This document shows positions 46,398 to 53,198 of a stretch of 64,000 nucleotides of DNA, one piece after another. The position numbers and the translations under genes are program-made. Positions within the stretch are counted from its first letter, which is position 1; each line of letters begins with the position of its first letter. Under the pieces are notes generated by a model. The model made no database searches. It was given only the letters and a program-made list of their open reading frames with translations, and was not told the DNA's origin. Source of the DNA: Anaerolinea thermophila (GTDB lineage Bacteria; Chloroflexota; Anaerolineae; Anaerolineales; Anaerolineaceae); contig NZ_DYHZ01000002.1 in NCBI RefSeq assembly GCF_020723905.1, positions 62,001 through 126,000 on the forward strand. Reading direction: 5' to 3'.

Positions 46398-46443
46398 GAA
46401 AGTATATTGGTTATACAAACCATGTACAGGTTGGAGGATGAGA

Positions 46444-47721
46444 ATGGCTGAGCCGGGTTTGAAGTTTTACGATTTGCCGCTGGAGGAGCGCCGGCGCTGG
46501 GTTGCCGAGCAGGCAGGCATTCCCCTGAGTGAAGTGGAGATGCTCAGTGGACTGCCCGGCTTGACTCCCGAGCAGGCTGACCACATGATTGAGAACGTCA
46601 TCGGGGTGTACGGCTTGCCGCTGGGGATTGCCCGCTATTTCCGCGTCAATGGACGGGATGTGCTCGTGCCCATGGCGCTGGAAGAGCCTTCGGTGGTTGC
46701 CAGTGCCTCTTTCATGGCGAAACTGGCGTTGCAGGGCGGGGGCTTCTTTGCCACCACCAGCGCGCCGGAGATGATCGGTCAAATGCAGGTGCTGGATCTG
46801 GACGACCCGGCTAGCGCCCGTCTTAAGATTCTGGAGCATCGTCAGGAATTGCTCGACGAAGCCACTGCGGTGGATCCCGTGCTGGCAAAACTGGGCGGGG
46901 GAGGGCGGGATCTGGAGGTGCGTCTGATTGCCGACTCGCCCATTGGGTCTTATCTGGTGGTGCATTTGATTTACGATGTGCGCGATGCCATGGGCGCCAA
47001 TGCGGTTAACACCGCGATGGAACGCCTGGCTCCGCGGGTGGAGCAAATCAGCGGGGGGCGGGTGCACCTGCGCATCCTCACCAACCTTGCCGAGCGGCGA
47101 GTGGCACGGGCGCGCTGTACCATCCCGGTGACAGCGCTGGCGTTTGGCGACTACGCTGGCGAGCGCGTGCGTGACGGCATCATCGAGGCATGGGCGTTTG
47201 CCGCCTCTGATCCCTACCGCGCTGCTACCCACAACAAGGGTATCATGAACGGCGTGGATGCGGTGGTGATTGCCACCGGCAACGACTGGCGTGCTGTGGA
47301 AGCCGGCGCGCATGCCTACGCCGCCCGTTCGGGACGCTACACCTCATTGAGCACATGGGGCAAAGACCGCGAGGGTAATCTGGTGGGGACGCTGGAGATG
47401 CCCATGGCAGTGGGCATCGTGGGTGGGGCAACCCGGGTGCATCCTGCGGCGCGCGCCGCCATCCAGTTGATGGGGGTGAAGAGCGCCGCCGAACTGGCGC
47501 AGATTATCGTTTCGGTGGGGCTGGCGCAGAATCTGGCGGCTCTGCGGGCGCTGGCAACCGAGGGCATTCAGCGCGGACACATGACTCTTCATGCCCGGCA
47601 GGTTGCCATTGCTGCAGGGGCAAGCGGGGACCTGATTGACCGGGTTGCCAGCCGAATGGTTGAAGAAAAAGTGGTGCGCATTGACCGCGCCCAGGAAATT
47701 TTGAAAGAACTGACTTCATAA
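46444..47721 (+). CDS. mvaA: Class II hydroxymethylglutaryl-CoA reductase
   Basis: Reduces HMG-CoA to mevalonate (425 residues), the bacterial/class II form. [15 protein letters not shown] holds the catalytic Glu, [12 protein letters not shown] the Lys, and [13 protein letters not shown] the C-terminal His; [15 protein letters not shown] is the NAD(P) region. The second ATG (46444) has GGAGG six bases upstream; the track ATG at 46438 abuts it. First gene of a group with HMG-CoA synthase, a thiolase homologue and a DUF35 protein; the reductase stop is 25 bases before the synthase start. Mevalonate kinase and later enzymes are not in the window. Confidence 0.93.
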
Positions 47722-47746: not shown

Positions 47747-48808
47747 ATGAGCGGACGTGTATTGAAATCGAACCGACCGGTGGGAATCATCGGCTATGGT
47801 GCATACATCCCGCGCTACCGCCTGCCTGCCAGCGAAGTTTCGCGGGTGTGGGAAGGCGGTAAGGGCAGCGGTCCGGTGAAAGAAAAAGCCGTTGCCGGGC
47901 TGGATGAGGACGTCATCACCATGTCCATTGAAGCCGCGCGCAACGCGCTGGCGCGGGCGCAGATGGACGCATCCCTCTTGCGTGCTGTGTGGGTGGGTTC
48001 AGAATCGCATCCGTATGCCGTCAAACCCACCGGCACGGTGGTGGCAGAAGCCATTGGCGCGGGTCCCTCCATTGAGGCGGCAGACTGGGAGTTCGCCTGC
48101 AAAGCCGGCACCGAGGCGCTGGTGGCTGCGATTTCTCTGGTGGGATCGGGCATGGGCGATTACGCCATGGCAATTGGCATGGATACGGCACAGGGTAAGC
48201 CCGGCGATCAACTGGAGTACACCGCCGCTTCCGGCGGAGCGGCGTACATCGTCGGTCCGGCGGAAAATGCTCTGGCAGTGTTCAATGGCTCGTATTCGTA
48301 TGTCACCGATACGCCCGATTTCTGGCGGCGCGCCAATCAGAAGTATCCGGAGCATGGTCAGCGGTTCACCGGCGAACCGGCGTACTTCAAACACATTGTT
48401 GAAGCCGGGAAAGCCCTTATGGAAGAACTGGGCACGCGCGCGGAAGATTACCGCTTTGCTGTTTTCCACCAGCCCAACACCAAGTTTCCCCAGCGTGCCG
48501 GGCAACTGCTGGGATTCAGCGATGAGCAGATCAAAACCGGCCTGCTTGCGCCGGTCATCGGCAACACGTATGCCGGAGCGGCCCTGGTGGGCTTGAGCGC
48601 GGTGCTGGATGTTGCCCAACCCGGCGACCGCATCCTGGTGGTTTCCTTTGGCTCGGGTGCCGGTTCGGATGCCTTTGACTGGGTGGTAACGGACAAAATC
48701 GAAGCGCGGCGTAATCTGGCGCCGCGGACTGCCGACTACATTGCCCGCCGTACCGAGATTGATTACGCTACCTACGCCCGCTTCCGCGGCAAGATTGATA
48801 TGGGGTAA
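47747..48808 (+). CDS. Archaeal-type hydroxymethylglutaryl-CoA synthase
   Basis: Condenses acetyl-CoA with acetoacetyl-CoA to HMG-CoA. 353 residues, the short form typical of archaea and Chloroflexota. [13 protein letters not shown] at the N-terminus, [13 protein letters not shown] with the catalytic Glu, [12 protein letters not shown] with the nucleophilic Cys, and [12 protein letters not shown] with the His are all intact. The thiolase-like gene begins four bases after its stop. In archaea the corresponding synthase forms a stable complex with thiolase and a DUF35 protein that channels acetoacetyl-CoA. Confidence 0.93.
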
Positions 48809-48812
48809 GGGT

Positions 48813-49976
48813 ATGAGCGACGTTGTCATCGCAGGTGTTGGTCAAATCCCCGTTGGGGAACACTGGGATGTTTCTTTGCGTTCGCAGGCTACCCGCGCAG
48901 TGCTGGCGGCGATCAAAGATGCCGGTGGGTTGAAGCCGCAAGCCATGTACATTGGCAACCTGCTGGCTCCAACGGTATCGCATCAGAGCAATCTGGGTGC
49001 GCTTCTGCCCGACTGGAGCAATCTGACGGGCATTGAGGGTATCACCGTGGAGGCGGCAGGGGCTTCAGGCGGTGGAGCGTTTCGCCTGGGGTATCTGGCG
49101 GTTGCCTCCGGGTTTGTGGATGTAGCCATTGTGGTGGGTGTGGAAAAAATCACCGATGTCGTTGGACCTGAACTGGAACGCGCCATTGCTGAAAGCACTG
49201 ACTACGACTACGAACTGGCGCAGGGGTTGTCCCTGACGGGCCAGGCGGGGCTGGTGATGCAACTGTACCTGCACGAGTACAAAGCCCCGCGGGAAGCCTT
49301 TGCAGCCTTCCCCATCCTTGCCCATGAGAACGCTGTGGGCAACCCCTTTGCCATGTACCGTAAACCCATCAACCAGAAAGCCTATGACAGTGCGCCCATG
49401 CTCAGCGAACCGGTCAACCTGATGGACATGGCGCCCTATGCCGACGGTGCGGCGGCGGTGGTGCTCACCCGTCGAGAACTTGTTCCTGAGTCGATCAGGC
49501 ATCCGCTGGTGAAGGTTTCGGGCTCCAGCGTTTCCAGCGACACCCTTGCCCTGCACGACCGCACTGATCCGCTGGCGTTCGATGCCGCGCGGCTCTCCGT
49601 CGAAGGAGCCTGCCGCCAGGCGGGCATTCTTCCGCAGGATGTGGACTTCTTCGAATTGACCGATTCCTTCTCCATCTACGCGGTGCTTTCGCTGGAAGCG
49701 GCGGGTTTTGCGCCGCGCGGCGAGGGCTGGAAACTGGGACAGGATGGCACTCTGCGGCGGGATGGTAAACTGCCGATTCTGACTATGGGCGGCTTCAAAG
49801 CGCGGGGTAATCCGCTGGGCGCCGCCGGGATCTATCAGGTTGTTGAGGCAGCCTTACAATTGCGTGGCGAGGCGGGGAGCAATCAGATCCCCAACGCACG
49901 CCGTGCGCTGGTGCAGAATCTGGGCGGTCCAGCCTCAACGGCGGTAGCGCACGTGCTGGAACGGGTCAACGGATGA
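48813..49976 (+). CDS. Thiolase homologue lacking all catalytic residues
   Basis: About 387 residues with an archaeal-type thiolase fold, colinear with acetoacetyl-CoA thiolases. The catalytic positions are changed: VEAAGASGGGAFRLGYL where the family has VEAACASGG (Cys to Gly, codon GGG), ELTDSFSIYAVLSLEAAGF where it has HD-F (His to Thr), and GGFKARGNPLGAAGIYQ where it has GHPxGATG (His to Asn). It should not form acetoacetyl-CoA, but may keep a structural role in the synthase complex. The ATG at 48813 follows four bases after the synthase; the track start at 48741 is inside it. Confidence 0.82.
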   Translation: MSDVVIAGVGQIPVGEHWDVSLRSQATRAVLAAIKDAGGLKPQAMYIGNLLAPTVSHQSNLGALLPDWSNLTGIEGITVEAAGASGGGAFRLGYLAVASGFVDVAIVVGVEKITDVVGPELERAIAESTDYDYELAQGLSLTGQAGLVMQLYLHEYKAPREAFAAFPILAHENAVGNPFAMYRKPINQKAYDSAPMLSEPVNLMDMAPYADGAAAVVLTRRELVPESIRHPLVKVSGSSVSSDTLALHDRTDPLAFDAARLSVEGACRQAGILPQDVDFFELTDSFSIYAVLSLEAAGFAPRGEGWKLGQDGTLRRDGKLPILTMGGFKARGNPLGAAGIYQVVEAALQLRGEAGSNQIPNARRALVQNLGGPASTAVAHVLERVNG

Positions 49977-50105: not shown

Positions 50106-50513
50106 ATGGAAAATCCACGCCATTGGAGAATTCGTAAACAGCGTTACGCCCTGGTGGGCGAGGTGTGCCCGCACTGTGAAGCCAAAATCTTCCCTCCGCG
50201 GGATGTCTGCCCGAACTGCGGCGGCGAAGCCAAGACGCAATTTAACTTTAGCGGTAAAGGCACTGTATTCTCATTTACCGTCATGAACGACGCCCCCGCA
50301 GGCTATGAAAAGAACCTGCCCTATGCGGTGGCGCTGGTTAAACTGGAAGAAGGTCCCATTGTGACTGCTCAGTTGACCGATCTGGGCGATCAGCCGGTGC
50401 AGATTGGTATGCCCGTGGAGATGGTCACCCGCCGGATTCGCGATGATGGCGATGAAAAGGGCATCATTGTGTACGGCTACAAGTTCCGCCCGGCGATGTC
50501 CAGCGCGCAGTAA
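50106..50513 (+). CDS. DUF35 OB-fold/zinc-ribbon protein
   Basis: Protein of 135 residues: N-terminal zinc ribbon (GEVCPHCEAKIFPPRDVCPNCGG, four Cys) and C-terminal OB fold (GTVFSFTVMNDAPAGYEKNLPYAVALVKLEEG). In archaea the homologue binds HMG-CoA synthase and thiolase and shares a CoA-binding site between them. Gene order here supports the same complex. A 129-base gap separates it from the thiolase-like gene, larger than the other gaps; AAAGGAG precedes the ATG. Confidence 0.9.
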   Translation: MENPRHWRIRKQRYALVGEVCPHCEAKIFPPRDVCPNCGGEAKTQFNFSGKGTVFSFTVMNDAPAGYEKNLPYAVALVKLEEGPIVTAQLTDLGDQPVQIGMPVEMVTRRIRDDGDEKGIIVYGYKFRPAMSSAQ

Positions 50514-50816: not shown

Positions 50817-53198
50817 ATGAAAAAGAACCTTTTTTTCGTGATGGGACTGTTATTCCTGTTGATTTCAGCGTTTGCTCCGTATGGGGAAGTTGCCCGGTTG
50901 GGAAATGAGCAGTCCGAAGCGAGGGGAAAGGAGGCAGTCTTCTCCGCGCTGGAGGAGAGCAGGGACGCTCTGCGTTTGGGGGAAGGAATCTCTGCCCGGC
51001 GCCTCCTGACATTCGAACCACTTGAGGGGGTGACTGCGATAGCCGTGGGGTACAGTCACACCTGTGGGCTGACGGACAGTGGGGGAGTGCTGTGCTGGGG
51101 AAATAACGAGTACGGTCAGTTAGGAAACGGAATGAATGAGGATCGGGCGACGCCCGTGGCGGTGAGCGGACTTTCCGGCGGGGTGACTGCGATAACCGCG
51201 GGATACAGTCACACCTGTGCGCTGACGGACAGTGGCGGGGTGCTGTGCTGGGGAAATAACGAGTACGGTCAGTTGGGGGATGGGACGACGTTGGGGCGGC
51301 TGACGCCTGTGGGAGTGAGCGGACTGTCCAGCGGGGTGATTGCGATCGCCGCCGGGGGGTACCATACCTGTGCGCTGAAGAACAGTGGCGGGGTGGTGTG
51401 CTGGGGAGATAACTGGAATGGTCAGTTGGGAGATGGGACGAAGGAGGATCGGCTGACGCCCGTGGCGGTGAGCGGACTGTCCGGCGGGGTGACTGCGATA
51501 GCCGCAGGGTACAGTCACTCCTGTGCGCAGAAGAACAGCGGCGGGGTGGTGTGCTGGGGAAGCAACGCGTTTGGTCAGTTGGGAGATGGGACGACATTGG
51601 AGCGGCTGACGCCTGTTGGAGTGAGCGGTCTCTCCAGCGGGGTGGTTGCGATCACTGCGGGGTACGGTCTCACCTGTGCGCTGACGAACAGCGGTGGGAT
51701 GTTGTGCTGGGGAGACAACCGGTACGGTCAGTTAGGGGATGGGACGACGTCGGGGCGGCTGACGCCCGTGGCGGTGAGTGGTCTCTCCGGCGGGGTGATT
51801 GCGATCGCCGCAGGGGATGGTCACACCTGTGGGCTGACGGACAGTGGCGGAGTGCTGTGCTGGGGAAATAACTGGAATGGTCAGTTAGGGGACGGGACGA
51901 GAGAGAACCGGCTGACGCCTGTTGGAGTGAGCGGACTGACCGGCGGGGTGATTGCGATCGCCGCAGGTGGGTCTCACGCCTGTGCGCTGACGAACAGCGG
52001 CGGGGTGCTGTGCTGGGGCAAAAACTGGAATGGTCAGTTAGGGGGTGGAGCGCTGGGGTACCGCGTGTTCCCTGTAGCGGTGAGCGGACTGTCCGGCGGA
52101 GTGACTGCGATAACCGCGGGGTACAGTCACACCTGTGGGCTGACAGACAGTGGTGGAGTGCTGTGCTGGGGAGATAACTGGAATGGTCAGTTAGGGGATG
52201 GAACGAGGGAGGATCGGCGGACGCCTGTGGGAGTGAGCGGACTGTCCAGCGGGGTGGTTGCGATCGCCGCAGGAAGGTACCATACCTGTGCACTGACGAA
52301 CAGCGGCGGGGTGCTGTGCTGGGGAGATAACCGGTACGGTCAGTTAGGGGACGGGACGACGCTGGGGCGGCTGACGCCCGTGGCGGTGAGTGGTCTCTCT
52401 AGCGGGGTGACTGCGATAACCGCGGGGTACAGTCACACCTGTGCACTGACGGACAGTGGTGGGGTGCTGTGCTGGGGAACCAACTTGTATGGTCAGTTAG
52501 GGGACGGGACGACGTTGGGGCGGCTGACGCCCGTGGCGGTGAGCGGACTGTCCGGCGGAGTGGTTGCGATCTCTGCCGGATGGGATCACACCTGTGCAAA
52601 GACGGACAACGGCGGGATGCTGTGCTGGGGAAGCAACCGGTTCGGTCAGTTAGGGGACGGGACCTGGGAGGATCGGCGGACGCCCGTGGCGGTGAGCGGA
52701 CTGTCCACCGGGGTGAGATCGATAGCCGCGGGTGGGTACCACACCTGTGCGCTGAAGAACAGCGGCGGGGTGGTGTGCTGGGGAAGCAACCGGTATGGTC
52801 AGTTAGGGGACGGGACCTGGGAAGATCGGCTGACGCCTGTGGCGGTGAGCGGACTGTCCACCGGGGTGATTGGCATCGCTGTGGGGCAAAATCACACCTG
52901 TGCGCTGAAGAACAGCGGCGGGACAGTGTGCTGGGGAGATAACCGGTATGGTCAGTTAGGGGACGGGACGAGGGAGGAGCGACTGACGCCCGTGGCAGTG
53001 AGCGGCCTCTCCAGCGGGGTGAGAGCAGTAGCCGCGGGTGGAGATCATACCTGTGCGCTGACGGACAACGGCGGGGTGCTGTGCTGGGGAGATAACCGGT
53101 ACGGTCAGTTAGGGGATGGAACGTCAGGGTACAGCAGTGTACCTGCGCCGGTAGTTATCTATCCCTTCAAGGTCTTTTTGCCCGCAGTGCGGAAGTAG
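50817..53198 (+). CDS. Secreted RCC1-repeat protein, two predicted seven-bladed propellers
   Basis: Exported protein of 793 residues: signal peptide (LFFVMGLLFLLISAFAP), a linker to residue 70, then 14 near-identical repeats of 51 residues (GVTAIAAGYSHTCALTDSGGVLCWGxNxYGQLGDGT...TPVAVSGLS). One RCC1 propeller has seven blades, so 14 repeats give two. Each repeat has two Cys (HTCAL and LCWG), a likely disulfide. The C-terminal tail YPFKVFLPAVRK is like the ends of many Chloroflexota secreted proteins. It may bind protein or glycan at the surface; no enzyme motif. GGGG(G)ACAC lies before the ATG, a weak ribosome site. Confidence 0.87.
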   Translation: MKKNLFFVMGLLFLLISAFAPYGEVARLGNEQSEARGKEAVFSALEESRDALRLGEGISARRLLTFEPLEGVTAIAVGYSHTCGLTDSGGVLCWGNNEYGQLGNGMNEDRATPVAVSGLSGGVTAITAGYSHTCALTDSGGVLCWGNNEYGQLGDGTTLGRLTPVGVSGLSSGVIAIAAGGYHTCALKNSGGVVCWGDNWNGQLGDGTKEDRLTPVAVSGLSGGVTAIAAGYSHSCAQKNSGGVVCWGSNAFGQLGDGTTLERLTPVGVSGLSSGVVAITAGYGLTCALTNSGGMLCWGDNRYGQLGDGTTSGRLTPVAVSGLSGGVIAIAAGDGHTCGLTDSGGVLCWGNNWNGQLGDGTRENRLTPVGVSGLTGGVIAIAAGGSHACALTNSGGVLCWGKNWNGQLGGGALGYRVFPVAVSGLSGGVTAITAGYSHTCGLTDSGGVLCWGDNWNGQLGDGTREDRRTPVGVSGLSSGVVAIAAGRYHTCALTNSGGVLCWGDNRYGQLGDGTTLGRLTPVAVSGLSSGVTAITAGYSHTCALTDSGGVLCWGTNLYGQLGDGTTLGRLTPVAVSGLSGGVVAISAGWDHTCAKTDNGGMLCWGSNRFGQLGDGTWEDRRTPVAVSGLSTGVRSIAAGGYHTCALKNSGGVVCWGSNRYGQLGDGTWEDRLTPVAVSGLSTGVIGIAVGQNHTCALKNSGGTVCWGDNRYGQLGDGTREERLTPVAVSGLSSGVRAVAAGGDHTCALTDNGGVLCWGDNRYGQLGDGTSGYSSVPAPVVIYPFKVFLPAVRK
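51027..53153 (+). repeat. Fourteen tandem 153-bp coding repeats (RCC1 blades)
   Basis: Unit boundaries fall every 153 bases from 51027 (the fourteenth starts at 53016). Segments such as CAGTTAGGGGACGGGACG recur almost unchanged, showing recent duplication or gene conversion. Repeat 7 differs most (GGGALGYRVFPVAV). Length is exact to the base, which keeps the frame. Unequal crossing-over could change the number of blades. Confidence 0.85.

Follow-up and report, generated by a model that had tools for sequence, protein, structure and literature searches.

In archaea, acetoacetyl-CoA thiolase, a DUF35 protein and HMG-CoA synthase (HMGS) form a complex, the rationale given for which is channelling: HMGS pulls the unfavourable thiolase step via a shared CoA site. 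In the structure 6ESQ, each of the three proteins contributes residues to CoA binding (PMC6392133), and thiolase and HMGS are connected through DUF35 (PMC6392133, PMC12329534). A homologous three-protein assembly with one dead thiolase-fold partner is the acyltransferase PhlABC of Pseudomonas protegens (PDB 5M3K), in which the Cys of the HMGS-like PhlA is replaced (Gly115) and this subunit is taken to be required for assembly only (PMC6392133), while the thiolase-like PhlC works. The locus described here presents the converse arrangement, an intact HMGS with a dead thiolase, and PhlABC is the strongest precedent for a dead subunit kept in such an assembly. Among the open-access papers searched, none was found that describes such a counterpart on the thiolase side.

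The window, a stretch of 64,000 nucleotides from Anaerolinea thermophila, contains four genes in one order, all on the + strand. The first is a class II HMG-CoA reductase (HMGR; 46438..47721; TIGR00532, 402 bits against a cut-off of 260; PF00368), which carries the NCBIfam label of the degradative NAD type, yet stands in a biosynthetic context. It is followed by an archaeal-type HMGS (47747..48808; TIGR00748, 542 bits against cut-offs of 353 and 244), by a thiolase-like gene that starts 4 bases after the end of HMGS (48813..49976, open over 387 aa), and by a DUF35 gene (50106..50513), the product of which has zinc-ribbon and OB-fold Pfam domains, both above gathering (PF12172, PF01796), and is the candidate bridge between thiolase and HMGS. 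Immediately 3' of the operon lies an ORF (50817-53198) whose 793 aa consist of RCC1-like repeats (GGVLCWGNNEYGQLGDGT). The thiolase/DUF35/HMGS trio thus has the same gene partners as the archaeal complex (6ESQ/6ET9), in an arrangement kept in relatives, and the three window proteins match its subunits: the best solved matches of HMGS and DUF35 are 6ESQ_I (E=1.2e-130) and 6ESQ_E (E=2.6e-31), respectively. The window operon differs in that it adds HMGR, and in that its thiolase subunit is without the catalytic residues.

Over its full length, the thiolase-like protein can be aligned with the solved thiolases 6ESQ and 7YVY, and both PF22691 and PF00108 score above gathering, which places it in the SCP2/archaeal-type thiolase family. 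Against these two structures, G83 (codon 49059..49061) falls on the nucleophilic Cys (VEAAGASGG vs VEAACASGS), T283 (49659..49661) on the His of HDxF (ELTDSF vs EVHDCF), and N333 (49809..49811) on the GHP His (ARGNPLG vs AAGHALG). The residues expected of an acetoacetyl-CoA thiolase, i.e., the Cys of EAACASG and the two His, are therefore replaced by Gly83, Thr283 and Asn333, as an earlier sequence-only reading had proposed. That reading left room for the real active-site residues lying at shifted positions; the alignment with the two solved thiolases is gap-free near all three catalytic positions and rules this out. A sequencing error, against which the same reading had argued, is likewise ruled out, since dozens of orthologues share the losses. 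By alignment, then, the window protein has the thiolase fold but neither the nucleophile nor either catalytic His; we refer to it as a pseudothiolase. The closest solved sequence is the Pyrococcus furiosus thiolase PFC_04095 (PDB 7YVY; 43% in the structural alignment), which has the same fold, but in which the Cys-His-His triad is intact. A structure model of the pseudothiolase from 36 sequences (pLDDT 94.0, pTM 0.94) superimposes on 6ESQ/6ET9 with a TM of 0.95 and 1.6 A.

Scanning of genome contigs yielded 53 relatives. By a family search, 117 of 121 Anaerolineaceae genomes have matches, in most cases at least two per genome: one about 50-76% identical to the window protein and one about 44-49% identical. 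In Anaerolineae, copies of the closer kind reside in an HMGR-HMGS-thiolase(-DUF35) operon, and the Cys is absent from every one of them (71/71 non-redundant copies). The farther kind occupies non-operon loci with no adjacent HMGS or DUF35, and retains Cys-His-His in all 40 copies fetched. Among the 71 operon-type copies, the Cys site is occupied by G (30), E (20), D (18), N (2) or Q (1), and the three catalytic sites together show 26 residue combinations. It should be noted that the Cys site in the window protein and its Anaerolineae relatives is never A, S or T. The confinement to G, D, E, N and Q may mean that the backbone is constrained at the nucleophile elbow; it might also hint at a role for this site, which would count against the scaffold function proposed below.

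Loss of the Cys is also found in archaea. A recognisable thiolase gene adjoins HMGS in 18 of the 20 Thermoproteota loci fetched, which were chosen from the match list rather than at random, and 7 of these 18 operon thiolases have no Cys (L170, L181, L182, L183, L186, L187, L188). We built a tree with the catalytic columns left out. The Chloroflexota Cys-less operon copies form one clade (56 rows, support 97/89), which also takes in copies of Chloroflexota that do not belong to Anaerolineae; its sister group (87/87) consists of intact paralogues and of intact operon copies of three other Anaerolineae families. Within the Cys-less clade, there are at least 15 state changes at the Cys site, at least 24 at the HDxF His site and at least 12 at the GHP His site, and parsimony requires at least 5 changes of the Cys state over the sampled tree. 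The AU test rejects a tree in which all Cys-less operon copies are forced together (p 0.011), but not one in which only L170 and L183 are made to join the Chloroflexota clade (p 0.108); long branches are involved. It is likely that the Cys was lost more than once. The loss is clade-wide and ancient, and probably recurrent.

Several other departures from the canonical active site were seen. The HMGS-operon thiolase L047:1449-2594, outside the Cys-less clade, has the state C-T-H, in which the Cys and the GHP His are kept and the HDxF His is replaced by Thr; this is possibly a separate path to loss. Four SCP2-type thiolase-like proteins (L143, L144, L145, L217) have Ser, Thr or Pro in place of the Cys, keep both His and have no adjoining HMGS within the stretch seen. 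One group of them resembles ST0096 of Sulfolobus tokodaii (PDB 4YZO), a protein of the SCP2-type thiolase fold in which the alignment shows Ser at the Cys position; ST0096 differs from the window protein in that both His are kept, and probably belongs to another branch (cf. L143). The genome G189, which has a dead operon copy, also carries a second, distant HMGS/thiolase/DUF35-like cluster (L155:5013-7840), with an HMGS about 33% identical.

The Cys-less copies evolve under purifying selection. For the pseudothiolase, pairwise comparisons give a dN/dS of mostly 0.02-0.16, with 0.37 for the distant pair L017-L111 and with some dS values near saturation; it is similar to that of HMGR and somewhat higher than that of HMGS in the same pairs. 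Dead and intact forms have 58 near-invariant positions in common. The three catalytic sites in the dead form exceed 59-82% of sites in variability, and neither a new fixed Cys or His among the aligned dead copies nor a fixed replacement catalytic set among the 71 Anaerolineae copies was found. The dead form has other residues at some positions that the intact form conserves (N145 to A and S207 to A, and also T122 and F141). A comparison of DUF35-linked thiolases with paralogues without DUF35 yielded no partner-binding signature beyond three sites, all of them conservative.

The partners are preserved. Glu86, Cys118 and His241 of HMGS are invariant (124/124) in an alignment that covers operons of both kinds, dead and intact, and in which some genomes occur twice; the view that the pseudothiolase stands between an intact HMGS and a DUF35 protein thus holds, both neighbours passing their family tests. 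DUF35 is present in 15/15 genomes checked; in some genera it is non-adjacent and is found elsewhere in the genome at 74-79% identity. The window genome yielded one close DUF35 relative, the operon copy.

The pathway itself is probably essential. DXR was not found in the window genome, which has mevalonate kinase, isopentenyl phosphate kinase (IPK) and mevalonate decarboxylase, so, as judged from gene content, isoprenoids probably depend on the HMGS operon. This enzyme set agrees with the alternative mevalonate pathway demonstrated in Roseiflexus (PMC3857490). At another locus of the window genome (L189:204-3227), genes for IPK, mevalonate kinase and a decaprenyl-phosphate phosphoribosyltransferase-like protein are clustered, away from the HMGS operon.

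Acetoacetyl-CoA could come from other thiolases, which the sequence-only reading had suggested looking for. The window genome encodes an intact SCP2-type thiolase (C12:56604-57749), 46% identical to the pseudothiolase, and a classical thiolase (C10, about 366 kb) in which the Cys, NEAF, GHP and second Cys motifs are present. Seven Chloroflexota genomes that do not belong to Anaerolineae (G211, G203, G195, G266, G258, G132, G234) combine a dead copy with classical thiolases, and a second SCP2-type copy was not found in them. Conversely, G016 and G048 have an intact SCP2 paralogue and no strong classical match. In five archaeal genomes whose operon copy is dead, an intact SCP2-type thiolase is encoded at another locus (L199-L204, L207), mostly with its own DUF35. 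Every pseudothiolase genome checked has another thiolase, and either source seems to suffice. A link of the classical thiolase to mevalonate kinase was considered and dropped: the neighbouring GHMP kinase (G000 C10, about 365 kb) adjoins threonine synthase and reads as a homoserine kinase.

We consider it probable that the pseudothiolase is a subunit of an archaeal-type complex minus the thiolase chemistry, retained because HMGS needs it. This agrees with the structural, non-catalytic subunit suggested earlier, with acetoacetyl-CoA coming from another thiolase, and is supported by the fold, the purifying selection, the intact HMGS, the presence of other thiolases, and the relaxed catalytic sites with no replacement catalytic set. 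The pseudothiolase would still assemble with DUF35 and HMGS in the manner of 6ESQ/6ET9; CoA would be bound at the interface of the three proteins, with the pseudothiolase serving as a scaffold and as a wall of the CoA site that it shares with HMGS. Were the thiolase subunit removed, HMGS would lose the integrity of its own substrate site, and this proposed need would be the reason why the fold was kept while catalysis went: the catalytic residues would drift, and the fold and interfaces stay. Acetoacetyl-CoA would be supplied in trans, by the intact SCP2-type paralogue, the classical thiolase, or both, and with such a supply the channelling from thiolase to synthase inside the complex would be lost or replaced. 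Two observations speak against this reading: the near-absence of a partner-binding signature, and the genera in which DUF35 is not next to the operon. Whether the complex repeatedly turned into a synthase-only machine, in Chloroflexota and in several Thermoproteota, with the dead thiolase a permanent part of the HMGS CoA site and channelling abandoned, is a question on which we see the chances as even.

The most serious alternative concerns new chemistry, i.e., a remodelled pocket acting on another CoA ester together with the DUF35 partner, in the manner of the steroid aldolases Ltp2-ChsH2 and Sal-Shy. These pair a thiolase fold with DUF35 and have a rebuilt active site; Ltp2 and Sal, of the same superfamily, have Tyr at the HDxF His position (PMC12329534). 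The window protein has Thr283 there, and Tyr occupies the site in just 2 of the 71 Anaerolineae copies. An early-branching group of 12 sequences does retain D/E + HD + N, which could be read as a remodelled site. However, the new catalytic residues of the aldolases are fixed and stand in a steroid context, whereas the 26 combinations in this family include no alternative catalytic residue that became fixed, and the operon context is that of mevalonate only. We regard new chemistry as unlikely. The sequence-only reading had also suggested that the protein may bind another acyl-CoA, with which the present results are compatible. Thiolase activity itself, through other residues, is barely credible: low-level condensation by a Cys-less protein is compatible with the sequence, but the nucleophile and both His are gone, and no conserved Cys or His compensates for them.

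Two further alternatives keep the pseudothiolase close to its original substrate. It could form a heteromer with the intact paralogue, the active site of which would be docked onto HMGS/DUF35, so that channelling would be kept. Such a paralogue exists in most Anaerolineaceae genomes searched, and the one in the window genome has no DUF35 of its own; nevertheless, it sits at a separate, non-operon locus, and the seven same-phylum genomes outside the class have a pseudothiolase with no second SCP2-type copy, for which reasons we give the heteromer little chance. The dead pocket could otherwise be a sensor or regulator, in which bound acetyl-CoA or acetoacetyl-CoA would exert allosteric control over HMGS. 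The strongly retained fold under purifying selection would accord with this, as would the thiolase-like TbSLP, which was crystallised with acetoacetyl-CoA and malonyl-CoA (entries 5AB6, 5AB7). Yet the altered positions N145, S207, T122 and F141 are conserved in the intact form and some of them probably line the pocket, and we attach very little weight to a regulatory role.

Taken as a complex subunit that has parted with its chemistry, the pseudothiolase would mean that a large group of bacteria and some archaea, dependent on this pathway, have kept the genes of the complex and discarded the thiolase chemistry. If confirmed, the assembly would be held together by the shared CoA site and not by channelling, and the acetoacetyl-CoA thiolase assignments made by annotation pipelines would be wrong for these genes. 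The dead-thiolase operons would also be natural variants for direct tests of the channelling hypothesis.
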